A DNA stretch of 64,000 bases, taken from Chitinophaga caeni. Lineage in GTDB: Bacteria > Bacteroidota > Bacteroidia > Chitinophagales > Chitinophagaceae. The stretch spans positions 1,302,001 through 1,366,000 of the forward strand of contig NZ_CP023777.1 of the NCBI RefSeq assembly GCF_002557795.1, read 5' to 3'. Under the pieces are notes generated by a model. That model was not told the origin of the DNA. It was given only the letters and a program-made list of their open reading frames with translations, and searched no databases. This document shows, piece after piece, positions 7,936 through 41,529 of this stretch. The position numbers and the translations under genes are program-made. Position 1 is the stretch's first letter. Each line of letters begins with the position of its first letter.

Positions 7936-9417
7936 ATGTTAAAGCAGACTCAACAACAGAAATTATTACAAAAACTGTCACCGCAACAGATTCAATTGAT
8001 GAAGCTGTTGCAGGTTCCTACTGCCAACCTGGAAGAGAGGATCAAGGAAGAATTGGAAGAAAATCCCGCGTTGGAACATAGCGAAGATACTTACGATGAC
8101 GATCTATCTAAAGATCCGGCCGAAGAGTACGAAAATAATGATGATGAGTTCGAAGTGGACGGTGAAAGTGAATATGATAATATAGATATATCAGAATACG
8201 TGTCGGAAGGGGATGACGATATCGCGGACTATAAACTGCGTGATGATAATTACGGCGACCAGGAAGAAACCCGCACCATCCCGGTTAGGGTGGAGACTTC
8301 TTTCCACGAGCAATTATTATCCCAACTGGGAATGCTTGCCCTCGACGAACGCCAACACCGCGTAGCCGAACAAATTATCGGTAGCATCGATGATGATGGT
8401 TACCTGAGGAGGGAGGTCGATGCCATCGTGGATGATCTTTCGTTCTCCCAAAATATCGAGACCTCCGACGAGGAAGTGAAAGAGTTGATCAAGCTGATTC
8501 AAACCTTCGATCCGCCGGGCGTTTGTTGTGCCGATTTGAGGGAATGCCTGCTTTTGCAGCTCCGTAGAAAGCCACAGGATGAACCCAGCATCGTGAATGC
8601 TACCCAAATCCTTGATGAGTACTTCGAAGAATTTACCAAAAAACATTACGAGAAAATCCAAAAGGCCCTGGGCCTAAGCGATGATGATCTGAAGGAAGCC
8701 ATCACGCAAATTATCCGCCTGAACCCGAAACCCGGCTCTAACTTTGAATCGGTTAATAAGGCCGAGAGCTATGTAATACCCGATTTTTTTATATTGAACA
8801 ACAACGGGAAACTGGAACTTTCCCTCAATTCTAAAAATGCGCCGGACTTACGCATTTCCGAAGGTTACCGCGAAATGCTGAGGGAATACGATAAAGGGGA
8901 TAAGAAAGATAAGCGCCAGAAAGAAGCCGTATTGTTTATCAAGCAAAAGATTGATGCCGCGAAATGGTTTATCGATGCCATCAAGCAGCGCCAGCATACA
9001 TTATTGTCCACGATGGAAGCCATCATGGATTATCAAAGGGAGTTTTTCCTCACCGGCGATGAAACCACGTTGAAACCGATGATCTTAAAAGATATCGCGG
9101 ATCGTACGCAGCTCGATATTTCCACCGTTAGCCGCGTAGCCAACAGCAAGTTCGTGCAAACGGAATTCGGTACCTTTAAATTGAAATTCTTCTTCTCCGA
9201 ATCATTATCTACAGATAGCGGCGAAGAGGTGAGTACCCGGGAAGTAAAGAAGATACTTTCCGACCTGATCGAAGGGGAGAATAAGCGCAAGCCCTTGAGC
9301 GATGAAAATCTGACCAAGATGTTACAAGAAAAAGGTTATAATATTGCCCGTAGAACCGTGGCAAAATATAGGGAGCAGCTCAATATCCCGGTGGCCAGGT
9401 TAAGGAAAGCACTTTAA
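7936..9417 (+). CDS. rpoN: RNA polymerase sigma-54 factor
   Basis: A 493-residue RpoN with the classic layout: Gln/Leu-rich region I (QQQKLLQKLSPQQIQLMKLL, residues 6-25), a strongly acidic region II (about 48-115), the core-binding domain (about 120-300), an HTH-containing DNA-binding domain, and the RpoN box ARRTVAKYR (471-479) near the C-terminus. It directs RNA polymerase to -24/-12 promoters and needs an AAA+ activator, none of which is encoded in this window. Two sigma-54-like sites occur in front of outer-membrane protein genes at 56.4 and 57.2 kb. Confidence 0.97.
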   Translation: MLKQTQQQKLLQKLSPQQIQLMKLLQVPTANLEERIKEELEENPALEHSEDTYDDDLSKDPAEEYENNDDEFEVDGESEYDNIDISEYVSEGDDDIADYKLRDDNYGDQEETRTIPVRVETSFHEQLLSQLGMLALDERQHRVAEQIIGSIDDDGYLRREVDAIVDDLSFSQNIETSDEEVKELIKLIQTFDPPGVCCADLRECLLLQLRRKPQDEPSIVNATQILDEYFEEFTKKHYEKIQKALGLSDDDLKEAITQIIRLNPKPGSNFESVNKAESYVIPDFFILNNNGKLELSLNSKNAPDLRISEGYREMLREYDKGDKKDKRQKEAVLFIKQKIDAAKWFIDAIKQRQHTLLSTMEAIMDYQREFFLTGDETTLKPMILKDIADRTQLDISTVSRVANSKFVQTEFGTFKLKFFFSESLSTDSGEEVSTREVKKILSDLIEGENKRKPLSDENLTKMLQEKGYNIARRTVAKYREQLNIPVARLRKAL

Positions 9418-29067: not shown

Positions 29068-29094
29068 GTGAGTGTAAATTAAACTGTGTCAAGG

Positions 29095-29136
29095 TCCCTG
29101 GCTTAGAGCCGCCTGCAGGCGGCTCTAAGCCAGGGA
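29095..29136. repeat. 42-bp perfect palindrome inside IS256 copy 1
   Basis: Fully self-complementary around 29115/29116 (core CCTGCAGG; outer half TCCCTGGCTTAGAGCCGCC). It lies between the left inverted repeat and the transposase stop, where copy 2 has no such sequence. The spacing from IS end to stop codon is 43 bases longer here. Either an inserted hairpin element or an acquired terminator. Confidence 0.85.
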
Positions 29137-29143
29137 AAAATTT

Positions 29144-30363
29144 TTAAATATCGAGCTGCACCCGGTTGCCAAAGATTATCGATAACTGCGATACCGTGAT
29201 GCCCCAGTTTTGTAGTGGCTGCGTCCATTTCTTCTCTATATTCCGGGTTGCCAGGTAGATCAACTTCAACAGCGCTATATCGCTCGTAAAGGCCCCTTTG
29301 CTCTTCGTTACTTTGCGCACCTGCCGGTGGAAGCCTTCAATCGTGTTGGTCGTGTAGATCAGCTTGCGAATGGCGGGCGGATATTCAAAATAGGCACTCA
29401 GCTTGTCCCAGTTATTACGCCAGGAAATTGTTACCACCGGATATTTCTTGCCCCATTTTCCTTCCAGTGCATCCAGTTTATCCTCCGCCTGCTGCTTGCT
29501 CACTGCCTGGTAAACAGGCTTCAGATCATTCATAAAACCTTCTGGTCCTTGCTCGCTACATACTTCAGTGAGTTGCGGATCTGATGCACGATACAGCTCT
29601 GAACCACTGTTTGAGGGTATATCGTGCCAATAGCATCTGCAAGACCCTTCAGATTGTCTATGCACGCGATTAGTATATCCTCCACGCCCCGGTTCTGAAG
29701 ATCGGTCAGCACGCTCAGCCAGAAATTAGCGCCCTCGCTTTCACTAACATACATACCCAGTAATTCCTTGCGACCGTCTTTCTTTATTCCCAGGATATTA
29801 TACACGCACCGTGTTTGCACCTTGCCGTCTTCCTTCACCTTGTAGAACATCGCATCCAGCCATACAATGCGGTACAAAGACTCCAAGGGCCGGCTCTGCC
29901 ACTTCCTGACCATCGGCACTACTTTATCCGTAATAGCCGATAACGTTGTTGCCGATATCTCCGTATCGTACATATCCTCAATATGTGCCGAGATATCCCG
30001 GAAACTCATCCCCCGTCCATACATGCTGATGATCTTCTTCTCCAGGCTCTCTGCCAGTATCTTTTCCCGTTTACGTACGATTTGGGGATCAAAATGGCCG
30101 GACCGGTCACGGGGAGTGGAAAGCGCTATGGTGCCATCGGAAGTCTTTAACTGCTTGTTTGTCTTACCGTTCTTACGGTTCCCCTGCTGCCGCTCCTGTT
30201 CATTTACCTGATCCTCTATTTCCTCTTCCAGGGCGGCTTCCAGAAACTCCTTTAATAAAGGGGCAAACGCGCCGTCTTTGCCGAATAAGGATCTGCCGTT
30301 TCGTAGTTGGGAAAGTGTTTTTTGCTTCAGCGCTTCGTAATCGAATTTTTCTTTCTCCATCAT
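29144..30363 (-). pseudogene. IS256-family transposase, frameshifted
   Basis: Two frames together give a full-length mutator-type transposase closely similar to that at 40209-41429. The N-terminal 277 residues (30363-29530) carry LDAMF and CIDNLKG (first two acids of the DDE triad) and end abruptly at SKDQKVL. The C-terminal part resumes in another frame at FMNDLKPVYQAVSK and has TTNTIEGFHRQ (the Glu). At the junction copy 2 has nine bases where copy 1 has eight, a 1-base deletion near 29533-29540. No classical slippery heptamer is present, so I call it inactivated. Confidence 0.88.
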
Positions 30364-30607
30364 ATGTGTTTAAAGTTAAGAATTTCTCAATTTCTTAACC
30401 TTGACACACTTTATTTTACAGTCTCCTTTTGGAAGCAGATTATCTGCTATAAAGAATTTTTAATAAAATATATTTTAAATAAGCTCTTAATGTTTTTGAA
30501 TATTCGGCTAGGTAATTTTAAAAAAAACTTTTTTTTTACAAAAAAGAACTATATTACACATATAAACTTAAGATTGTATGTTTAACCTATTTTAACAACC
30601 TAACTAT

Positions 30608-31906
30608 ATGAAATGTATAAAATACATTGTTTTGTTGATTACATATGGTACTAGTTTCTTACACAGATTAAAGAGTTGGAATTTCTTCGTAATTAGTATT
30701 TGCTTCCTTTTTTATTCTTCCTGTAATATACATACCGAGCAACTTAATACTGAGGGCTTTAGCGACAGTCTGACTGTTTCTATTAATCTCAAAGATACTT
30801 CAATTAACACGACTGGAGAACTTTTTGACTCTATTGAATACATTTTTTTAGAATCAAGTACTGAAGAAAGTATATTTTCTAATATCGATAAAATTGAAAT
30901 AACTGATAATTATTATATAATACTTGACACGAGAACTAATAAACTTCTTTTTTTTAATAAAGATGGGAGATTTTCTCACAGTCTACCACAAGTTTTGGCA
31001 AATGGAGATTCGATATTTACTACATTAAGCGACTTTACTGTAAATGAAAATAAGGAAGAAATTTTGATTTATGATAGTGGAATAGCTTTTGATGGAGTTA
31101 TCAAAACTGATTTTCACGGCACTTATAAGTTGGCAAGTAGAACTCCAATGTCGTTTAATGAATTTGCTTTGGGTGAGGGTGGCATGTTTTATTACAAAAG
31201 GTATTCTTCAAAATATTATAAGAGTGTAGAAAGTAATAATGAGAATCATCTTTTATATTATGTTTCCGATTCAAGTAGTATAAAGTATTTATATTTTTCT
31301 TACGATTCAAAGATTATCAATGGAAGAGACATGTATGATTTAGATCATATGTTTACGCGGTCAGGCAATAAGGTATATTTCCAAAGGCCTTTTGATTATT
31401 CAGTGTATGAATTTAATATGAATGGGACTAAATCATTAAGGATTGATTTCCTTTTCCCCAATTATTCCAAATTTCCTGAAGATTTCCTGAGGAATAATAA
31501 ATACTTGGGTAATAGGATATCTGAATTTAAGGCTCCATCGAATAAACTTAAAATTTGGACAATATCTAGTTATCACAGGGTTTTAAATAGTATCATTTTT
31601 AACATAAATATTGTTGGCAGTAAAGATTTTTCTTTCTTATATAATCTTAAAAATAAAAAGTACTATAATATTGAGAATATTTACTCTTCTAGTATTTCGA
31701 ATTGGATGCCCTTTTTTGAAGATAGGATAATCGCTGCTGATAATAAATCGTATTACAGCTATATTACTCCCAAGCTAATGTTGCAAGCTTATAGGACTCT
31801 CGGTGATAGACATTTAAAAAATAGCCCTTTTATTTTGAAGAAAATAAAGGAATTAACCATTTTTAGTAACCCTATCCTAGTTAGACTCGAGCCAAGATCA
31901 AACTAG
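30608..31906 (+). CDS. Lipoprotein with 6-bladed beta-propeller (BF3164-like)
   Basis: 432 residues. A long N-terminus leads into a lipoprotein signal, FFVISICFLFYSSC (lipid Cys39). The rest is repeated beta-rich segments of the BF3164/DUF5128 6-bladed TolB-like class: FDSIEYIFLESSTEESIFSN, YYIILDTRTNKLLFFNKDGRF, then KVYFQRPFDYSVYEFN. The ending FSNPILVRLEP matches the typical NPxLV tail. Such propellers often lie beside small secreted cysteine proteins in Bacteroidota. Codons are far more A/T-ending than in flanking chromosome, suggesting transfer. First gene of the cassette, 182 bases after the IS256 copy; TATGTTTA near 30577 may be its -7 box. Function unknown. Confidence 0.75.
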   Translation: MKCIKYIVLLITYGTSFLHRLKSWNFFVISICFLFYSSCNIHTEQLNTEGFSDSLTVSINLKDTSINTTGELFDSIEYIFLESSTEESIFSNIDKIEITDNYYIILDTRTNKLLFFNKDGRFSHSLPQVLANGDSIFTTLSDFTVNENKEEILIYDSGIAFDGVIKTDFHGTYKLASRTPMSFNEFALGEGGMFYYKRYSSKYYKSVESNNENHLLYYVSDSSSIKYLYFSYDSKIINGRDMYDLDHMFTRSGNKVYFQRPFDYSVYEFNMNGTKSLRIDFLFPNYSKFPEDFLRNNKYLGNRISEFKAPSNKLKIWTISSYHRVLNSIIFNINIVGSKDFSFLYNLKNKKYYNIENIYSSSISNWMPFFEDRIIAADNKSYYSYITPKLMLQAYRTLGDRHLKNSPFILKKIKELTIFSNPILVRLEPRSN

Positions 31907-31953
31907 CAAAATTGAAGGATTAGATTAAGAAATACACTTCTTGTATAACTTCT

Positions 31954-31965
31954 TAGCAAACGACC
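31954..31965. repeat. Left arm of 12-bp inverted repeat flanking the Thr-Gly gene
   Basis: TAGCAAACGACC, 24 bases before the ATG at 31990; its exact complement is at 32452-32463. Confidence 0.75.
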
Positions 31966-31989
31966 AATTTTAATCTCAAAACAAGAATT

Positions 31990-32430
31990 ATGAAGAAAAA
32001 TCGATATTTAATATTTACAATTTGCTTAACATTTATTGTTTTAGCGACATTGAACTTGACATCAAGTGCCGTAGCTCAAAGCGGTAGCACAGGAACTGGA
32101 ACCGGTACAGGAAGTTCGAGTTGTAGTACGACACAGGTTACAAATCAGGGGGCTGAAATCAATAAGACAACAGAGAAAGTGTCATGCGGTGAATGTACTT
32201 TGTATAGAATTAAAGCGGGTTGGAAGGAAGGAGAAGGTGTAGGGGCAAAGTATGAATCATATAAACAAACAGTTTATGCCACGGTACAAACGTGCAAATC
32301 TTCAGAGGATAAAACTCGCACATGTATTCTTGTAGCACTTGCAGGTAGCATAAACTGCCCTCCTCCACCTTCGGATTCTGATACAGGAACAGGAACGGGA
32401 ACGGGAACAGGAACGGGTACAGGGAATTAA
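31990..32430 (+). CDS. Small secreted cysteine protein with Thr-Gly repeat tails
   Basis: 146 residues, not recognised as a named family but similar in form to NVEALA-type secreted peptides. Signal peptide 1-30 (ending SSAVAQ). The mature protein starts SGSTGTGTGTGSSS, has six cysteines (45, 66, 69, 102, 112, 123; including CGEC), a proline stretch CPPPP, and a C-terminal tail of seven Thr-Gly pairs. Three possible disulfides form a core between two flexible Thr-rich arms, likely O-glycan acceptors. The tail is encoded by near-perfect ACRGGA hexamers (32383-32425), so its length can vary by slippage. Flanked exactly by a 12-bp inverted repeat. I infer it is the cargo of the surrounding cassette. 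Confidence 0.75.
   Translation: MKKNRYLIFTICLTFIVLATLNLTSSAVAQSGSTGTGTGTGSSSCSTTQVTNQGAEINKTTEKVSCGECTLYRIKAGWKEGEGVGAKYESYKQTVYATVQTCKSSEDKTRTCILVALAGSINCPPPPSDSDTGTGTGTGTGTGTGN
32383..32425 (+). repeat. Hexanucleotide repeat encoding (Thr-Gly)7
   Basis: Seven in-frame ACA/ACG-GGA/GGT/GGG units at the 3' end of the secreted protein gene. Six-base period keeps frame, so copy changes alter tail length without frameshift. Confidence 0.85.
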
Positions 32431-32451
32431 TTTTATTAAAATAAATTAAAA

Positions 32452-32463
32452 GGTCGTTTGCTA
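32452..32463. repeat. Right arm of 12-bp inverted repeat flanking the Thr-Gly gene
   Basis: GGTCGTTTGCTA, 21 bases after the stop at 32428-32430; exact complement of 31954-31965. An adjacent ATTAAAA also pairs with TTTTAAT beside the left arm after a 2-base gap. Confidence 0.75.
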
Positions 32464-32485
32464 TTATTACTATTATAAGAAGCCT

Positions 32486-33739
32486 ATGATTATTAAAATA
32501 TCAAAGTTGTTTTTTATTGTAATTGTTATCATTATTGTTTTCAATTCTATCCTTGACATAGGATTTTCAACACGGGATGATGATTGGATGCTTTTAAATA
32601 ACCCATTTGTTTTAATGCCTAATGATGAAAACTGGTTTTGGTGGATTAAAGGTCTTTTTTTAAATTATTGGGATATACAGTATTCTCCTTTAAATACTAT
32701 ATATTATTCTTTAGTTTACAAAATAAATGGTTACGATTCATTCTATTTTCATTTATCTTCTATTGTCATTCATATAATGAATGGGGTATTGCTTTGTAAA
32801 CTAGGAGAACAGACCTATATTTTATTTCAGCCTGATTTTAATCGAGCAGATTTGAAAACAATATGCTATATATCTACTTTTTTTTGGCTTATTGCGCCAA
32901 TTAATGTTGAGGCAGTCGTATGGATCGCAGCTTCCAAAGTTCTTTTATGTACGATGTTTACAATATTATGCTTGATTTTTTTTATTAGTAGCTTATTAAA
33001 TATAGATATAGATTCTTTGAAGAGCTTCAGGATACGTTTAGTATTGAGCTTTACATGTTTCTTTCTTTCTTTCTTTTTTAAGGAACAAGCATTTATGACG
33101 CCTCTTATAATTGGTGCGATTTTATTTTACTATACCAGTAGTAATATGAAGATGATTGGTAAAATTTTCCTAAAACAGTTGATAATATATTTAATATTAA
33201 TGTTTATTTTTTCGATCATATTCGTTTATATTACATTAGATGCTAATCAATTATCAAATAGCCCATTCTATATTTACCCACTTTGTGATAGGTTAGTTTT
33301 ATCTTTTTATTGCTTTTTCAAATATGTTTTTGATGTTTTTATACCAATGAACCTGCATTATGCCTATAAATTTCCAATGGCTCCACAGGAAAACTTGCCT
33401 TTTATTTATTATTTGTTTATTGTTCTTTTCTTTATAATTATTTGGCAAGGGTATAAAATATTTAGCACCTCGTTAAGTAATTACTTTTTTGAATTATTAT
33501 GTATTTCAATTTTTATTTCTCAAATAGTATTGGTTCTTCAAATATTTCCCTTAAATAGGCCAATGCTATCAGCAGATAGATATATGTATTTGTCGTCATT
33601 TTTCTTAATTCTATTTGCTTCAAAATATGGATTTAAGCTATATAAAAGATATAGGACATTGTTATATACATTACTTATTGGACTAGGTGTATATTTTTTT
33701 ATGTACAGTAGCTATCTTGCTTCGGTTTGGCATTTCTAA
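32486..33739 (+). CDS. GT-C-type membrane glycosyltransferase, TMTC/PMT-like
   Basis: 417 residues with about ten hydrophobic segments. After the first helix is an acidic cluster, Asp31-33, in STRDDDWMLLNNPFV, followed by YSPLNTIYYSLVYKINGYDS and then a helix with HIMNGVL. This is the order seen in GT-C enzymes of the TMTC/protein O-mannosyltransferase type, where the loop-1 Asp is catalytic. Such enzymes use polyprenyl-phosphate sugars to glycosylate Ser/Thr outside the membrane. No TPR repeats follow. It lies directly after the Thr-rich secreted protein and in the same cassette as a DPM-like GT2. Very AT-rich. Family placement is by eye. Confidence 0.6.
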   Translation: MIIKISKLFFIVIVIIIVFNSILDIGFSTRDDDWMLLNNPFVLMPNDENWFWWIKGLFLNYWDIQYSPLNTIYYSLVYKINGYDSFYFHLSSIVIHIMNGVLLCKLGEQTYILFQPDFNRADLKTICYISTFFWLIAPINVEAVVWIAASKVLLCTMFTILCLIFFISSLLNIDIDSLKSFRIRLVLSFTCFFLSFFFKEQAFMTPLIIGAILFYYTSSNMKMIGKIFLKQLIIYLILMFIFSIIFVYITLDANQLSNSPFYIYPLCDRLVLSFYCFFKYVFDVFIPMNLHYAYKFPMAPQENLPFIYYLFIVLFFIIIWQGYKIFSTSLSNYFFELLCISIFISQIVLVLQIFPLNRPMLSADRYMYLSSFFLILFASKYGFKLYKRYRTLLYTLLIGLGVYFFMYSSYLASVWHF

Positions 33740-33740
33740 A

Positions 33741-34376
33741 ATGAGTATTATGCATTCAAAAAAAACAGTTCGATTATTATTTGCACTGCTTTGTGTATTA
33801 TTTGTTTCAACAATTTATTTTGCTGTTATTAAAAGGAATAATATTGAAGTGTCTAATCTTGGAGAGAGTCTTAGTGGTGGAGATTCAGAATTCAGTATTG
33901 CCAATTCTTTATATAGTATTTATATTCCATTTATAGTTAAAACTGAGGGAGAATTAATTGATTCTACAATTGTGATAGAGGATAGTTCATTGAAAAAGAT
34001 AAAATTAATTTCATTAATGAAAGGGAAAAGGAAATTAGTATTCAGGTACTCATTCCGAGATTGTGATCTATGCGTTAACACCGTTAAAGGGCTGATATAC
34101 AAAAATATTATAGATAAGGAGAATGTTTTGTTTTTGTCCGATAACTATTCTACAAAGGACTTTATATTGAAAGAGAAGTCTAGTGACAAGAGAGTTAGTT
34201 GTTATAACATTGTTGATGGAATTTCAGGGCTAAATTTAGAGGCGATTGAGGGTAAAAATTTACCGTTTTTATTCGTACTCAATTCTGATTTACGAGTACA
34301 GAAAGTTTTTATACCTTTTAAAGAAGATCCACAGCAAATAGAGGAATATCTTAATTATATTAACGAAATTTTATAG
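33741..34376 (+). CDS. Membrane-anchored thioredoxin-fold protein (CxxC)
   Basis: 211 residues from ATG 33741, immediately after the upstream stop (33737-33739); an in-frame ATG at 33687 would overlap the previous gene. One N-terminal helix (11-30) anchors a periplasmic domain. The domain has FRYSFRDCDLCV with a CDLC redox pair (Cys108, Cys111) and, 64 residues later, LPFLFVLN with Pro175 in the cis-Pro position of thioredoxin folds. TlpA/redoxin-like overall. In a cassette with a six-Cys secreted protein it most plausibly makes, breaks or isomerises those disulfides. A third Cys (154) may be resolving. Start two bases before the next gene's start region suggests translational coupling downstream. 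Confidence 0.65.
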   Translation: MSIMHSKKTVRLLFALLCVLFVSTIYFAVIKRNNIEVSNLGESLSGGDSEFSIANSLYSIYIPFIVKTEGELIDSTIVIEDSSLKKIKLISLMKGKRKLVFRYSFRDCDLCVNTVKGLIYKNIIDKENVLFLSDNYSTKDFILKEKSSDKRVSCYNIVDGISGLNLEAIEGKNLPFLFVLNSDLRVQKVFIPFKEDPQQIEEYLNYINEIL

Positions 34377-34377
34377 A

Positions 34378-35613
34378 ATGGGTTCAAGATTAAATGTAAT
34401 TGCATTTATATGTATTCTTGTTAATTTATTGACAAATAAATTGCATGCTCAAGATTCCATGGAAATAAGAATAGCTCCGAATTATGCCATGGGTGGAAAG
34501 TGCTCAGAACTATTTCAATCCGTACGTTACATCCCGTTAGAAACAAGCAAAAAATGTATCATAGGAAGAGTTAGGAAATTGTATGTTGCCAAGGACAATT
34601 TTATTGTTTATGATGATACGCGAAATCAAATTGTAATTTTCGATAGAAATGGAAAGTACTTATCTAAAATAAATGATCTTTCCGGCAGTAGTAAAATCCC
34701 GGCCTGGGATATCCTTTTTGAAAATATCTCCATTGATTATGTTAATAATAAGATTATAGTTTTACCTAATTATGTACATGAAAAGATACGCGACATTATA
34801 TTTGAATTTGACTTTAACGGGAAACTATTAGCTAAAAGAAAATTCGATGTGTCAAACTTTGGTAGATCGTTTGCATCATTAGGAGATGATGCTTTCTTTA
34901 TTAAGTATGAACAGGGCGGGAGTTTATGGAAAACGCTTAAAAAGAAATACACTTTCGCCGTTATTAAAAATGGGAAAGTCTTATCAAACATTTTACCATG
35001 TTCGGAACATCCAATATTAGAAAATCAAGATAATCTTTTTGTCGTAAACATGGTAGAGAAATGGGCGAAAGGTACTCAAAGCGTATTTTTTAACCAAGCA
35101 TATAAGGATGAAATATATGAAATTGATACCGGGGGAGTGAGAAAGAAATACAAGTTAATCCTGCCTATAGAATATTCGATCCCTACTGATTTTCTTAGTA
35201 ACTCAATATATAATGGCAAAAGACTTGATACACTTATAGCGCACAATAAATGGGTTTACGGTTTTGATGAGATATACGGACAAGATGATATACTCTTGCT
35301 AAAGTATTTAAATACTGAGAATAATAATTATAATAAATACCTGCGTATTAACTTTTTAAACGGAATGTTTTATTCATTTAATTTCATTGAACCTGACACC
35401 TTGAGTTATTATTTACCTGTTGTTAGCGATGTTTTGGTTATGGCTAATGATAAAATCTATTCGGCTTTAAATACAAGAGATTTAATGGATGCGTATAGCA
35501 GGAATACATTTAAAAAAGTATACAAAGAAAACAGCTCGGTTCCAATCATTAGTAGCATAAATAAACTATCAAACCCTGTCATAGTCGAAATTACCCCTAA
35601 GGTAGATTTTTAA
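34378..35613 (+). CDS. Secreted 6-bladed beta-propeller protein (BF3164-like), second copy
   Basis: 411 residues; signal peptide 1-24 (ending NKLHAQ), soluble rather than lipid-anchored. Propeller features: SVRYIPLETSKKCIIGRVR, FIVYDDTRNQIVIFDRNG KY, AYKDEIYEIDTGG, and the ending LSNPVIVEITP, equivalent to that of the first propeller at 30608. The two are paralogous in layout but diverged. ATG is one base after the stop of the thioredoxin-fold gene, so the genes are coupled. Likely a periplasmic binding or assembly partner for the cassette product; no catalytic residues seen. Confidence 0.75.
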   Translation: MGSRLNVIAFICILVNLLTNKLHAQDSMEIRIAPNYAMGGKCSELFQSVRYIPLETSKKCIIGRVRKLYVAKDNFIVYDDTRNQIVIFDRNGKYLSKINDLSGSSKIPAWDILFENISIDYVNNKIIVLPNYVHEKIRDIIFEFDFNGKLLAKRKFDVSNFGRSFASLGDDAFFIKYEQGGSLWKTLKKKYTFAVIKNGKVLSNILPCSEHPILENQDNLFVVNMVEKWAKGTQSVFFNQAYKDEIYEIDTGGVRKKYKLILPIEYSIPTDFLSNSIYNGKRLDTLIAHNKWVYGFDEIYGQDDILLLKYLNTENNNYNKYLRINFLNGMFYSFNFIEPDTLSYYLPVVSDVLVMANDKIYSALNTRDLMDAYSRNTFKKVYKENSSVPIISSINKLSNPVIVEITPKVDF

Positions 35614-35623
35614 ATTACTTTTA

Positions 35624-38479
35624 ATGAGAAGAAAATTATGCCTACTTGTTTTTGCCATCTCAATTTTGATTTCTTTTTCTCTTAAAGCGCAAGAAATTAG
35701 CGATAGTTTACAAAAAGGAACCGTTTACGGGGTACTTTATGATTCATCACATAATCATTCATTACCTGCGGCAACCGTTGCAGTATATGCGCACGATTCT
35801 GTTCTGATATCGTATGCATTGACCGACAATTTTGGCAAATTCGAATTTCATAATTTGCCAATCGAACAGCCGTTGAAAGTTATCTGTACCCATATTGGAT
35901 ATAAGACCACGAGCTTTATATTTCAAATTAAAGCAAAGGAAATATCTGTGAAATTACCTTCAATAAATATGACTATACTGTATCAAGATTTAGAAGAAGT
36001 TGTAATTAAGGCAATGCCACCTGTAAGTATGAAGGGGGATACGATAGAATTTAATGCAGAGGCTTTTAAAATGGATAAGAATGCTGTAGCGGAGGATCTC
36101 TTGAGAAAGTTGCCGGGTGTGATTATTTGGGGGGATGGTACTATTACAGTTTATGGAAAAGAGGTAAATGCGATTTTGGTAAATGGAAAAAGTTTCTTTA
36201 ATAACGAAACAAAAGTAGCAACACAAAATATTGATAAAGGTGCTATTGATAAAGTTCAAGTATATAAAAGAAGTGATAATGACGCAAGGAAGGATTCAAT
36301 AATGGAAATCAATATAAAACTAAAAGAAGGGAAGGACAATGGATTTTTTGGTAAAGTTTCTGTAGGTAAAGGTTCCTGGAAGAGGCATGAATCAAATTTA
36401 AATTTTAATGCTTTTAATGCTAAAACACAAGTATCAATCGTAGGGGCACTTAATAATGTTAATAAGGCTCCAAAAGATATTATGACACTAATTTCCAATA
36501 GCACATTTAAGGGGGTTGGACTAAGTGTAGACTATCAACCTGAATTTAATCAACAGGGAGTAACCACTTCCAAGATGTTAGGCGGATTTTTTAAAAGGGA
36601 TTTTTCAAAACCAGGTGGTAGGCTCAATGAATTGAACATCGACTATTATTATAAAAATTCAAAGCTAATTGCAAATGAAAATTTAAGTACTTCTACACTT
36701 ATAGGAGATAATAATCGATTGAGTTCTTATGATAGCTCAAATAATAGAAATTTGGATAAAACGCACGTACTGAATTTAAAGTATGAAAGAGAGGGTTCCA
36801 AATACAGGGCTGTACTATCTACTGCTGTCAATATCCGGGACTCTAAAAATTATAGCATGAGAAACTTGGAAAGTCTAGATTTTATTAGTTATACTGCTTT
36901 AAGTAAGACGAGCAACTTAGGAGATGAAAGGAACTTGAATGAAAGTTACTCTTTTAGAATTGAACTTTCACCTTTGAAAAATAAAAATGACTTCCACAAC
37001 AAAAGTATACTTAGTGCTTTTGATAAAATCATATATGATTTTCATTACCTACGAGATTCTAGCCATTCGCATAACGATATAAATTTTGTTTCCTACGTTG
37101 ACACATTGGAGAATTTGAAATTTAACAGGAAATATGATAAGAACTTTAACCGGGTTTCCCAAGACGTTAATATTAAATCGAGCACCTTTGATGGACCGGG
37201 TATTCTTAAGCATTTGCATATTAAATATTTTTTTCTGAACAGATTCAAATTAGTCACGGATTGGAATAATACAAATGCTCTGGACTTTGATAATTCAAAA
37301 GATATGTACCTAAGAAATGATTATTTGACTAATAGAAGCCATTATACTGAAATTGATGAGCGACCGCAGATTTCTTTAACCAAATCTATCACAGATATTC
37401 TATATGGTCGATACAGCAAAAATTTGAACATTTCATTGAATATAATCGGACAGCTTATTCGGCAAAGGAATAATTCAGCCAAGCCCTTTCAGGATCTAGA
37501 TAAAAAGTACCATAATTTTATACCTGAAATTAGTGTGCAATATAGAAATAACCAATATTCTTTAACGGATCAATTTTTGGAAGCTGAATATAAAATATTT
37601 TACGATTACCCGTCTGTAAACCAATTAGTTCCCTTAATAGATAGCAGTGATATTTATTATCAGTACCTTGGAAGTCCCGATCTTAAGCCTCAAAAGAATA
37701 AGCAGTTAACACTCAGGTATCAATATAATGATTTAAAAGCTAGCAATAATTTCAAGTTATCTGCCATGTTGCGAGCTAAGATTATAAGTGATTTTTATGC
37801 CACTAATACCTTCATCAATCCTTCAGGTAGAAAATTCGTAAATTTAATAAATACTAACGGTTACAAAATTGCATATTTCAATGCGAATTTGAATAAAGCA
37901 TATAAGATCAATAAGAATAACTTATTTCAACTAGAGTATGTCAATTCCACGTACTTAAGTAAAAGACCTAGTTTCTTAAAGACTGCATCCACAGACATAA
38001 CTACGAGTATCATTTCTAATATTTTTAGTATAAATAATGATGTTTCTATATATTATAGCTGGCTGGAAAATTTGGTATTTAAATTATCTGAGAGCTACCA
38101 TTTTTATCAATCAAAGCAGGGGAAGGGCACTGCTGATTTATTGAAAAATGTTTATTATAATACACTCGCAAGTGTCTCCTATAATGCTACTAAGCGATTA
38201 AATGTGGGTAGCAATATAAGTTTTAAAAGTATGTTATCCAGTTATGGACAAAGAGATAAGTTTAAGATATGGAATGCAAATGTAAATTATAGATGTTTAC
38301 CCGGTAATAACCTCGAAATAACATTTGCTGCTCTGGATTTGCTAAAGCAAAATAAGGCTTTGATAAATTTTGGCGATTCTTATTCTATAACGGAAGGTTA
38401 TTCAAATGTACTACAGCAATATTTTATGCTTTCAATTGCTTTCTATCCTCGTCAGTTTGGAAGAAAGACATCTAACTGA
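35624..38479 (+). CDS. Outer-membrane beta-barrel receptor with carboxypeptidase-regulatory-like domain
   Basis: 951 residues. Signal peptide 1-22 (ending SLKAQ); CarboxypepD_reg-like domain about 30-115 (GTVYGVLYDSSHNHSLPAAT, then GYKTTSF); a plug-like domain about 140-235 (AEDLLRKLPGVIIWGDGTIT, then VLVNGKSFF); then a large barrel with alternating strands to the C-terminus (OMP_b-brl_3 type). TonB-dependent-transporter-like, but no SusD partner follows. In this cassette it may secrete, receive or display the Thr-Gly protein. AT-rich codon use matches the cassette, not the chromosome. Starts 10 bases after the propeller gene. Confidence 0.82.
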   Translation: MRRKLCLLVFAISILISFSLKAQEISDSLQKGTVYGVLYDSSHNHSLPAATVAVYAHDSVLISYALTDNFGKFEFHNLPIEQPLKVICTHIGYKTTSFIFQIKAKEISVKLPSINMTILYQDLEEVVIKAMPPVSMKGDTIEFNAEAFKMDKNAVAEDLLRKLPGVIIWGDGTITVYGKEVNAILVNGKSFFNNETKVATQNIDKGAIDKVQVYKRSDNDARKDSIMEINIKLKEGKDNGFFGKVSVGKGSWKRHESNLNFNAFNAKTQVSIVGALNNVNKAPKDIMTLISNSTFKGVGLSVDYQPEFNQQGVTTSKMLGGFFKRDFSKPGGRLNELNIDYYYKNSKLIANENLSTSTLIGDNNRLSSYDSSNNRNLDKTHVLNLKYEREGSKYRAVLSTAVNIRDSKNYSMRNLESLDFISYTALSKTSNLGDERNLNESYSFRIELSPLKNKNDFHNKSILSAFDKIIYDFHYLRDSSHSHNDINFVSYVDTLENLKFNRKYDKNFNRVSQDVNIKSSTFDGPGILKHLHIKYFFLNRFKLVTDWNNTNALDFDNSKDMYLRNDYLTNRSHYTEIDERPQISLTKSITDILYGRYSKNLNISLNIIGQLIRQRNNSAKPFQDLDKKYHNFIPEISVQYRNNQYSLTDQFLEAEYKIFYDYPSVNQLVPLIDSSDIYYQYLGSPDLKPQKNKQLTLRYQYNDLKASNNFKLSAMLRAKIISDFYATNTFINPSGRKFVNLINTNGYKIAYFNANLNKAYKINKNNLFQLEYVNSTYLSKRPSFLKTASTDITTSIISNIFSINNDVSIYYSWLENLVFKLSESYHFYQSKQGKGTADLLKNVYYNTLASVSYNATKRLNVGSNISFKSMLSSYGQRDKFKIWNANVNYRCLPGNNLEITFAALDLLKQNKALINFGDSYSITEGYSNVLQQYFMLSIAFYPRQFGRKTSN

Positions 38480-38527
38480 TATTTGTGAAATAACCTTATA
38501 AGTTTGGAACCATCAAATCTTAGATTA

Positions 38528-39481
38528 ATGAATGTTGTAGAAGTTAAGCCGTTAATAAGCATAGTAGTTCCTTGTTACAATGAAGAGGAGATAATTGAAA
38601 GAACAGAACGAACACTTTCGAATTATTTGGCTACGCTAGTTAATGATAATAAAGTATCTTCGGAAAGTTATATCGTGTTTGTTGATGATGGAAGTGTCGA
38701 CAATACATTTGATATTCTATTGAAATCTAGGAATTTGAATAGTAAGATTATTAAACTTGCTTCTAATAAAGGCCACCAATATGCCTTGTTGGCGGGGTTA
38801 GATTATGTCATTAATAAAACTGACTGTGTTATTACTATTGATGCAGATTTACAACACGATGTATATGCAATTAACAAAATGATTGATGCGTACCGAAGCG
38901 GTGCACATATCGTATATGGAATTTGGAAACATCGGCGCACTGAGACTTGGTTTAAGAAAAATTCAGCTTATTTTTTTTCATTGATGTTGAGAATGTTCGG
39001 AGTACCTCTAGTACCTAGACATTCAGACTTTAGACTGTTATCTAATAAAGTGCTTCAAGAGCTTTCTCGATATAAGGAATCAAATTTATTTTTAAGGGGA
39101 CTATTACCCCTCATTAATTTAAAAACAACGGCAATTGCTTATGAACAATCGGGTCGAATAGGAGGTAAGACTAAATATACACTAAAAAAGATGTTATCAC
39201 TAGCCATTAATGGTATTACTTCATTTAGCAATGTACCAATTCGTTTAATCACGATAATTGGGTTAATTTTATTTTTTGTTACAATGGGGCTAAGTATCAA
39301 TGTTTTAATTATTTATTTGAGAGGAAGAACCCTTCCAGGTTGGGCATCTATATCATTACCTATGTATTTTTTAAGCGGAGTACAATTATTAAGTTTAGGG
39401 GTTATAGGTGAATATATTGCGAAGATATATAAAGAAACAAAATGTCGGCCTAAGTATCATATTGAAGTGATAGTTGAGTAA
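38528..39481 (+). CDS. DPM/GtrB-like GT2 polyprenyl-phosphate glycosyltransferase
   Basis: 317 residues from ATG 38528; a TTG at 38504 is an alternative. GT-A domain: SIVVPCYNEEE (about 10-20), FVDDGSVDNT, ITIDADLQHD (DAD metal motif, about 104) and SDFRLLS. Two C-terminal helices (about 235-260 and 275-300) anchor it, as in GtrB, ArnC-like and bacterial DPM homologues, which charge undecaprenyl phosphate with one sugar. This would supply the donor for the GT-C enzyme at 32486. Last gene of the AT-rich cassette; an IS256 remnant follows 130 bases later. Sugar unknown. Confidence 0.88.
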   Translation: MNVVEVKPLISIVVPCYNEEEIIERTERTLSNYLATLVNDNKVSSESYIVFVDDGSVDNTFDILLKSRNLNSKIIKLASNKGHQYALLAGLDYVINKTDCVITIDADLQHDVYAINKMIDAYRSGAHIVYGIWKHRRTETWFKKNSAYFFSLMLRMFGVPLVPRHSDFRLLSNKVLQELSRYKESNLFLRGLLPLINLKTTAIAYEQSGRIGGKTKYTLKKMLSLAINGITSFSNVPIRLITIIGLILFFVTMGLSINVLIIYLRGRTLPGWASISLPMYFLSGVQLLSLGVIGEYIAKIYKETKCRPKYHIEVIVE

Positions 39482-39610: not shown

Positions 39611-40033
39611 CCATACTGGATCAATTTTCGGGGAACCTTACAAGAGTTTTGTGCTGATCTAAAGGAAGTTTATGGAGCACCTAATCGCGCAGCAGCAGAG
39701 CATGCGTTAGCCGCCTGTTCTGATAAATGGGGTGCCAAATACAGACATGCAATCCAATCCTGGGAGAACAACTGGGAGAATCTTACCAGCTATTTTGACT
39801 TCCCTATGGAGATCCGAAAGATCATGTATACCACAAATACCATCGAAAATCTTAACAGGGGCATCCGTAAGTATACTAAGACCAAAGTTCAATTTACCGA
39901 CGATGCATCGGCTCAAAAGGCCGTTTACCTGACTATAATGAACATCGAAAAGAAATGGAGCATGCCGCTCCATAACTGGGGGCTGGTGCTCCATCAATAT
40001 ATTACTATCTTTGAAAACAGATGTCGAATTTGA
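39611..40033 (+). pseudogene. Truncated IS256-family transposase, C-terminal part
   Basis: An open frame of about 140 codons without start encodes only the last third of a mutator-type transposase: EFCADLKEVYGA, RKIMYTTNTIENLNRG (with the catalytic Glu) and NIEKKWSMPLHNW. It is a different subfamily from the two full copies. The element's right inverted end is still present at about 40049-40073 (TTTACACAATATATTTTATA, then GTCTC). The left part is lost. Confidence 0.85.
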
Positions 40034-40175: not shown

Positions 40176-41491
40176 GGGAGTGTAAAATAAACTGTGTCAA
40201 CATTTAATTTATAATCGCAATTTCAGTCGATCCCCAAATATAATTGACAGCTGAGACACAGTCAGACTCCAGTTTTGAAGGGGCTGTGTCCATTTCTTCT
40301 GGATGTTCTGGGCAGCCAGGTAAATTAATTTCAGCAAGGCCATATCGGAGGTAAAGGCTCCTTTGGTTTTGGTCACTTTACGCACCTGGCGATGGAACCC
40401 CTCGATAGTATTAGTGGTGTAGATCAACCTGCGGATGGCCTCAGAATATTGGAAATACGTAGTGAGCTTATCCCAGTTCCGGCGCCAGGAGTCTATAACA
40501 ACTGGATATTTCTTTCCCCATTTTTCGTCCAGTTGATCCAGCTGCGACTCTGCTTCTTCCTTGCTCACCGCCTGATAAACCGGTTTTAAATCGGCCATAA
40601 ATGGCTTCTGGTCCTTACTGGCTATGTACCTGATAGAATTGCGGATTTGATGTACGACACAGGTTTGTACCGCTGTAGAGGGGAATATCGTGGCAATAGC
40701 CTCGGAAAATCCCTTCAAATTATCGATACAGGCAATAAGTATATCAGATACCCCCCGTTGCTGAAGATTGGCCAGGACACTCAGCCAGAAGTTAGCTCCC
40801 TCGCTCTCCGAGACATACATGCCTAATAGCTCTTTGCGTCCATCGGTATTTATACCAAGGATATTATAAACACAACGGTTAACTACTTTGCCTTCTTCTT
40901 TGACTTTATAAAACATGGCGTCCAGCCAGACAATGCAATACAGTGGCTCCAAAGGACGGGCCTGCCATTCTTTGACCAGAGGGATAACTTTATCGGTTAT
41001 GGAAGATAATGTCGCAGCTGAAATCTCTGTATCGTACATATCTTTGATATGAGCTGAGATGTCCCGTAAGCTCATGCCATGCCCATACATACCGATGATT
41101 TTACTCTCCAGGCTCTCTGCCAGAATGGTCTCCCGCTTTTTGATGATCTGTGGTTCAAAGCTGCTTGCCCGGTCACGGGGTGTCTCCAGATCGATAGTAC
41201 CATCTGCTGTTTTAAGCCGTTTTCGGTTTTTGCCATTCTTCCGGTTCCCATTTGCCCGTTGCTCATCATCTAAATGAACCTCCATCTCGCCCTCCAGTGC
41301 AGCTTCGAGAATATCTTTCAGAAGAGGTGCGAAAGCCCCATCTTTGCCAAACAGGGACTTACCAGAGCGGAGTTGCTCTAAGGTCTTCCGTTTGAGTTCT
41401 TCGTAGTCAAATTTTCCTTTTTGTTCCATAAAAAAAACTGTGTTAAAGATCTTGTTTTTTTAGTCTTTGACACAGTTTATTTTACAGTCTC
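40176..41491 (-). mobile_element. IS256-family element, copy 2 (apparently intact)
   Basis: 1316 bp. Terminal repeats: left GAGTGTAAAATAAACTGTGT (from 40178), right complement GACTGTAAAATAAACTGTGT, almost identical. The 9 bases ATCCTCTTG flank both ends (40167-40175 and 41492-41500). One uninterrupted transposase gene. Intact ends, gene and duplication suggest a recent, possibly active element. Confidence 0.93.
40209..41429 (-). CDS. IS256-family (mutator-type) transposase
   Basis: 406 residues, the normal length for IS256 transposases, which cut and join IS ends with an RNase H-like DDE core. Triad candidates: Asp in IVWLDAMFYKV, Asp in ACIDNLKGF and Glu in TTNTIEGFHRQ. The N-terminal region is charged and DNA-binding (EELKRKTLEQLRSGKSLFG). 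It is closely similar to the frameshifted copy at 29144-30363 but clearly diverged, so the two are different insertions of related elements rather than fresh duplicates. Confidence 0.95.
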   Translation of the reverse strand: MEQKGKFDYEELKRKTLEQLRSGKSLFGKDGAFAPLLKDILEAALEGEMEVHLDDEQRANGNRKNGKNRKRLKTADGTIDLETPRDRASSFEPQIIKKRETILAESLESKIIGMYGHGMSLRDISAHIKDMYDTEISAATLSSITDKVIPLVKEWQARPLEPLYCIVWLDAMFYKVKEEGKVVNRCVYNILGINTDGRKELLGMYVSESEGANFWLSVLANLQQRGVSDILIACIDNLKGFSEAIATIFPSTAVQTCVVHQIRNSIRYIASKDQKPFMADLKPVYQAVSKEEAESQLDQLDEKWGKKYPVVIDSWRRNWDKLTTYFQYSEAIRRLIYTTNTIEGFHRQVRKVTKTKGAFTSDMALLKLIYLAAQNIQKKWTQPLQNWSLTVSQLSIIFGDRLKLRL

Positions 41492-41529
41492 ATCCTCTTG
41501 TCATGTGTTGTATACTGAATGCTTTCTAG

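Follow-up and report, generated by a model that had tools for sequence, protein, structure and literature searches.

A recurrent seven-gene cassette of Chitinophaga caeni proposed to make, export and glycosylate a small Thr-Gly protein

The genome of Chitinophaga caeni, a single contig of 5.28 Mb, contains a seven-gene cassette that probably serves to produce and export a single small, disulfide-rich protein carrying threonine-glycine (Thr-Gly) tracts, and to glycosylate it. The cassette was analysed within a stretch of 64,000 nucleotides (positions 1302001-1366000; hereafter the window), to which coordinates refer unless a locus is named. Its seven open reading frames, all on the + strand at 30608-39481, are separated by gaps of 1 to 83 bases, and its GC content is 0.308 versus 0.427 and 0.421 in the flanks. 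An earlier note on this DNA had described just such a closely spaced run of foreign base composition. The encoded proteins are as follows:

30608-31906, + strand: DUF5128 six-bladed propeller, probable lipoprotein (YSSC, by eye); Pfam PF17170, E 2.2e-18
31990-32430, + strand: small secreted protein with six mature cysteines and Thr-Gly tracts near its N and C ends, the presumed glycosylation substrate; relative P0001, sequence matches in loci L016, L018 and L030
32486-33739, + strand: short GT-C membrane glycosyltransferase without tetratricopeptide repeats (TPR); alignment, tree, structure model and fold match
33741-34376, + strand: thioredoxin-fold protein carrying a CDLC motif, its N-terminal helix taken to be a membrane anchor; alignment, structure model and fold match
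34378-35613, + strand: second DUF5128 propeller, with a signal peptide and no lipobox (by eye); Pfam PF17170, E 3e-18
35624-38479, + strand: probable outer-membrane barrel protein with a carboxypeptidase-regulatory-like domain; Pfam matches, OMP_b-brl_3 in relatives
38504-39481, + strand: GT2 glycosyltransferase of the polyprenyl-phosphate sugar synthase kind (TTG start, with an ATG at 38528); Pfam and NCBIfam

The gene set, its recurrence and its order are observed directly in genomes, and the GT-C and thioredoxin folds are seen in models. The proposal that the seven genes form a single pathway, also made in the earlier note, is supported by this recurrence: rather than failing to co-occur elsewhere, the seven protein types are found together in other genomes.

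Recurrence of the gene set

An alignment of GT-C proteins was used to scan a collection of genomes from 84,980 species, and the best 80 of at least 347 confirmed relatives were retained as 78 loci. A further 148 genomes, that of the window included, were searched, and stretches of 11 to 20 kb were taken around 21 Chitinophaga matches. Sphingobacterium hungaricum (L018) encodes all seven protein types on a single strand, as does Chitinophaga deserti (L017), where the small protein was recognised by eye. The same set is present with broken frames in Niabella defluvii (L020), and Pedobacter caeni (L016) lacks only the GT2 gene within the 21 kb seen, in which other glycosyltransferase genes are present.

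A tree of 101 GT-C proteins separates short forms (61 rows) from forms of at least 539 residues and three shorter rows (L066, L070 and L147) by a branch with a support of 100 in the Shimodaira-Hasegawa-like approximate likelihood ratio test (SH-aLRT). The tree was made by a quick method, with long proteins cut to 520 residues and a midpoint root for drawing, and 34 of its 98 inner branches are starred. TPR repeats occur in all four long relatives tested and in none of four short relatives, nor do they occur in the window enzyme, whose closest counterpart in the tree is 38% identical. Short forms are rare outside some genera: 395 genomes of the phylum gave three short matches at E 1e-80 besides the window's own, and in one other family they were found in five of 245 genomes at E 1e-90.

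The neighbourhoods of short (360-520 residues) and long (more than 520 residues) GT-C genes are different. Propeller, thioredoxin and GT2 genes were counted on either strand within 4.5 kb and barrel genes within 6.5 kb, whereas a small protein had to be encoded on the same strand within 4.5 kb, with at least three cysteines and no lipobox. The counts leave out the duplicates L125, L127 and L141, as well as L020, L059, L066, L070 and L147 (fragments, loci cut by contig ends, or short rows among long ones in the tree), and the window is not among the 59 short loci. Near the GT-C gene, a propeller is found at 42 of 59 short versus 0 of 37 long loci, a thioredoxin at 35 versus 0, a small cysteine-rich secreted protein at 40 versus 1, a barrel at 11 versus 0 and a GT2 at 22 versus 8, with 4.5 kb of context on both sides at 43 of the short and 19 of the long loci. 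For those with full context, the propeller is found at 30/43 versus 0/19 and the small protein at 30/43 versus 1/19. Because near relatives remain among the counted loci, they were also merged at 50% identity, which gives 28/31 versus 0/33 for the propeller and 21/31 versus 1/33 for the small protein.

Gene order recurs as well. Between 49 and 51 small proteins were picked by hand from the locus lists, partly by position. Of 49, 24 are encoded directly after the GT-C gene and 8 directly after the GT2 gene, and a propeller follows 36 of the 49 (one at 313 bases). Seven loci were fetched once the profiles had been fixed, one of which (L205) is a copy of L042. Four of the other six, whose GT-C proteins share 45 to 65% identity with known rows, have both small protein and propeller; L208 has neither, nor does L210, where the contig cuts the downstream side. 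Among Chitinophaga genomes, 18 of the 21 that have the GT-C also have the thioredoxin protein (E 1e-7), versus 9 of the 58 that lack it (p 1.4e-8), an association that is favoured because the thioredoxin profile was built largely from GT-C loci. Within the window's own GT-C sub-clade (10 rows, support 99), propeller and thioredoxin accompany all ten, the barrel nine, and the small protein all ten, several by eye only.

The small protein and its partners

The small protein is 146 residues long, with six cysteines behind a signal peptide, and its Thr-Gly tracts use mixed codons; therefore the repeat is not one slipped hexamer. With scoring applied to the candidates sharing most words, a single-sequence search gave one convincing match and a profile search gave six at E 0.01, at least three of which (P0021-P0023) come from contigs already represented in the query alignment. 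P0001, its sole close relative in the database, has in common the six cysteines and the Thr-Gly tail, whereas the N-terminal tract is not shared. The protein is detected by sequence in L016, L018 and L030 (E 2e-5 to 1e-4), and at other loci it was recognised by size, signal and cysteines, by rule or by eye. The earlier note had pointed to small NVEALA-type proteins that sit beside BF3164 propellers. Kinship with NVEALA is rejected, as the window protein has no Pfam or NCBIfam match to NVEALA at E 1 or better; nor is NVEALA among the 25 of 27 Pfam families whose matches are listed for 51 small proteins at E 0.1. Small cysteine-rich proteins are present in two or three differing copies in L019, L034, L142, L144 and L197, as if the substrate slot had been duplicated and diversified.

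Chitinophaga genomes without the GT-C gene also have barrel-propeller pairs and propeller-thioredoxin pairs, and the small-protein slot is filled in many, but not all, of these loci. The occupant has a CBM_1 domain in L196 (E 4.9e-12), L197 (4.4e-11) and L198 (7.3e-14), and a CBM_14 domain in L195 (7.2e-16). A large neighbouring protein is an RND-type transporter in L195, and is alike by size and membrane segments in the other three. Four of the five proteins of this fungal-type CBM_1 and peritrophin-type CBM_14 set, all small, secreted and encoded beside propeller, thioredoxin and RND-like genes, were domain-scanned, and one was judged alike by eye:

L196:6183-6584, CBM_1 protein
L197:6102-6494, CBM_1 protein
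L197:6582-6989, similar protein by eye
L198:10385-10786, CBM_1 protein
L195:5771-6262, CBM_14 protein

Because the propeller-thioredoxin pair adjoins small proteins with cellulose- or chitin-binding domains at these loci, the small protein of the window probably serves as a binding or adhesive module at the cell surface. Small disulfide-rich exported proteins, some of which bind glycans, seem to occupy the slot. Since it is also filled where there is no GT-C gene, the GT-C looks like an added part, and small proteins beside it would be expected to be richer in Ser/Thr tracts than those without it. In the best 20-residue stretch, the Ser+Thr fraction is 0.45 beside GT-C (n=51, including P0001, whose neighbours are not known) versus 0.30 in hand-picked small proteins from loci without GT-C (n=13; p 0.005), and the Ser+Thr+Gly fraction is 0.65 versus 0.50 (p 0.03). 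Over whole proteins of the same sets, Ser+Thr+Gly does not differ (p 0.46) and the difference in Ser+Thr is not clear (p 0.08). This test modestly supports the glycosylation reading. The 13 control proteins may themselves include glycosylated ones, because L189 has a Wzy_C protein and L183 a GT2.

Specifically, the Wzy_C (O-antigen ligase) protein at L189:6723-8585 is encoded between a barrel gene and two small cysteine-rich proteins, in a cluster without GT-C. PglL-type O-oligosaccharyltransferases belong to the Wzy_C family, and the L189 protein may be another route to glycosylation. The window's own genome also has a second barrel gene with propeller and thioredoxin gene fragments (L175, at contig positions 542000-561900), apparently decayed.

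The GT-C protein has 417 residues and no Pfam domain, and a search of the PDB by sequence gave no match. Its structure model has a GT-C transmembrane fold whose 19 best fold matches are oligosaccharyltransferase (OST) and protein O-mannosyltransferase (PMT) chains, which supports the earlier assignment of the membrane enzyme. Residues D31 and D32 are invariant in 16 aligned sequences; we infer that they are the conserved acidic residues of the first outer loop, with a catalytic role. Alg9-like (Glyco_transf_22) GT-C genes lie near cassettes at L016:14691-16175, L129:3475-4965 and L131:11153-12577, and perhaps serve for sugar elongation. At six loci (L029, L043, L044, L045, L048 and L056) the short GT-C adjoins a lipoprotein (by eye) of 410-517 residues with a start like MKKNALL...FACRKDI, a candidate for a second substrate type.

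The remaining partners largely agree with the earlier assignments. Model and fold match give the thioredoxin-like protein, with its CDLC motif, a thioredoxin fold; its link to Thioredoxin_8 by sequence is not significant. A sequence search of the PDB gave no match for the protein alone, and the barrel and thioredoxin profiles gave only chance-level rows. For its gene, 33741 is a likelier start than 33687, from which an open frame overlaps the GT-C gene. Both propellers exceed the PF17170 cut-off (66.9 and 66.5 versus 22.9 bits). Propellers of this type also go by the name BF3164; it is reportedly named in a 2007 paper, and DUF5128 is named in no paper found by literature search. The GT2 domain is above its Pfam cut-off (E 5.6e-22), and the nearest NCBIfam model is PgfS (E 6.9e-61). 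The barrel assignment is a probable one. The carboxypeptidase-regulatory match falls just under the Pfam cut-off (30.8 versus 32.3 bits) and the window protein matches no barrel model; it is read as a barrel because relatives carry OMP_b-brl_3 (6 of 11 aligned, E 0.01), and one of the 11 matches a TonB plug (E 1.1e-4). Carboxypeptidase-regulatory models are matched among these relatives too.

A 12-base inverted repeat encloses the small gene:

31954-31965, no strand assigned: 5' arm (TAGCAAACGACC); 0 of 60 shuffles reach 12 bases, the largest being 11
32452-32463, no strand assigned: 3' arm of the same 12-base repeat

Such repeats could stabilise or process this part of the transcript. In L016 and L018, 2 of 60 shuffles reach the corresponding repeat, and more do so for the other 19 of 23 genes tested; in L032, a 16-base inverted repeat around 8266-8742 encloses the small gene, and 0 of 60 shuffles have one as long. 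Folding of the whole small-gene segment is not unusual (z -1.54, with 7 of 100 shuffles as good). The cassette is not preceded by a promoter of the consensus TTTG-N-TAnnTTTG, and matches to it in the window are no more frequent than chance (5 versus a mean of 4.0 in shuffles).

Proposed pathway and its alternatives

In the pathway that we infer, which extends to the substrate, the sugar and every transfer and export step, the signal peptide would export the small protein, and GT2 would make a polyprenyl-phosphate sugar that a periplasm-facing GT-C could transfer to Thr/Ser residues in the tracts. The anchored CDLC protein may help to set disulfides, and the propellers, with the barrel in the window's sub-clade, would carry the product as far as the outer membrane or through it. 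It is plausible that the small protein is O-glycosylated.

Several observations weigh against this reading. Most small proteins cannot be aligned with one another, and the 51 have no convincing Pfam or NCBIfam match (best E 0.001 and 0.015). A strong tract is missing in 18 of the 51 proteins linked to GT-C and present in 4 of the 13 without it, and the small protein of L183, also without GT-C, is very Ser-rich. Barrel and GT2 partner some cassettes, but not all. Seven loci were viewed in a Pedobacter/Mucilaginibacter sub-clade of 8 rows: six of them lack a small protein and have a large lipoprotein next to GT-C, and the remaining one, L035, combines a propeller with a cysteine-free small protein. 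Finally, CxxC is missing from 5 of 19 aligned thioredoxin homologues; the disulfide-handling role proposed earlier has the motif of the window protein in its favour and these homologues against it.

It is also possible, though unlikely, that GT-C and GT2 modify another molecule, such as lipid A or a surface polysaccharide, or else several exported proteins, with the small protein merely co-transcribed. The fold matches also include ArnT and ALG12, which act on lipid acceptors; the further Alg9-like gene in L016, L129 and L131 (with GtrA as well in L016) would suit such a role, and so would the six loci that pair GT-C with a large lipoprotein. However, OST and PMT chains take all of the top 19 places, and the order GT-C, small protein, propeller recurs in distant lineages, in contrast to the long GT-C loci.

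Somewhat more doubtful is an uptake system in which the small protein captures an external ligand for import through the barrel. The domain matches of the barrel relatives, TonB plug included, are consistent with import, and barrel and propeller also occur without GT-C, in L178 and L180 near apparent SusC/SusD genes (by eye). Yet the barrel accompanies only 11 of 59 short GT-C genes, and inspection of the window cassette by eye showed no SusD-like gene.

We give still less weight to the small protein being a secreted, bacteriocin-like antagonist, matured and exported by the other genes. Small, variable, disulfide-rich proteins in up to three copies per locus (L019, L034, L142 and L144) would be in keeping with this, and 2 of the 51 weakly match the putative bacteriocin family YxzE (best E 0.0071), but by eye there is no extra constant gene for immunity, and the recognisable relatives in the slot are carbohydrate-binding domains.

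A composite IS256 transposon carrying unrelated genes by chance, suggested by insertion sequences (IS) on both sides and foreign GC content, is very improbable and was rejected, because the two complete IS copies are 71% identical and each has its own 8-base target duplication, as fits separate simple insertions, and because the gene set recurs elsewhere. The elements are:

29068-30425, - strand: left IS256-family element with its transposase split between two frames; flanked on either side by CTTTTGGA
40176-41492, - strand: right IS256-family element, 71% identical to the left; TCCTCTTG on both sides

A third IS256-like transposase remnant (by eye) lies at 39806-40033, between the cassette and the right element. 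The cassette likely arrived horizontally, given its GC content, the lack of a close relative and the IS-rich surroundings. The flanking genes are adjacent in no Chitinophaga genome searched (places compared by eye), so no empty site can be demonstrated.

Related systems and implications

The Thr-rich repeat of the adhesin Cnm is a substrate of the Pgf system of Streptococcus mutans. As in Pgf, the window has a PMT-like protein (by fold) and a Thr-rich exported protein in one gene run. In S. mutans, modification of the adhesin depends on a GT-A enzyme and a PMT-like protein that are transcribed with it; the system comprises PgfS, PgfM1, PgfE and PgfM2, with Cnm and WapA as substrates, and resembles the cassette in joining a PgfS-like GT2 to a surface protein and a membrane partner related to PMT (PMC5856776). 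Unlike the cassette, Pgf acts on Gram-positive adhesins, and its operon as described has no propeller, barrel or thioredoxin; moreover, the window GT2 scores 206 bits, below the PgfS cut-off of 500.

The GT-C part is homologous to TMTC-type O-mannosyltransferases, prokaryotic homologues of which, with TPR, are in print (PMC7801869). Long relatives of the window enzyme carry TPR, whereas the enzyme itself has neither TPR nor a Pfam match and lies in a gene run with one small secreted protein. It differs from Pmt1/2 and Pmt4, to which it is 8 to 10% identical, and it has no Pfam domain. By the features tested, the cassette is a member of neither Pgf nor TMTC, and would work like Pgf.

General O-glycosylation in Bacteroidota is genome-wide and uses a short D(S/T) motif. 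Described for Tannerella, Porphyromonas and Prevotella, it is similar in phylum and in acting on exported proteins; the single dedicated substrate slot proposed here would set the cassette apart. A literature search, mostly at the abstract level, found no paper on this gene set.

More broadly, Bacteroidota and their neighbours may reuse a module of propeller and thioredoxin for making and exporting small disulfide-rich binding proteins, including some that carry CBM_1 or CBM_14. One branch would have gained a dedicated TMTC-like GT-C that lacks TPR and O-glycosylates the adjoining small protein alone, each GT-C having its own substrate. We regard the case for this wider view as evenly poised. 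Should it hold, there would be dozens of naturally occurring enzyme-substrate pairs for a TMTC/PMT-like O-glycosyltransferase, every pair encoded in a single gene run and compact enough to be studied by mass spectrometry and in vitro. A role for DUF5128 propellers would also be suggested, as would a way in which Chitinophaga may present small modules that bind cellulose and chitin.
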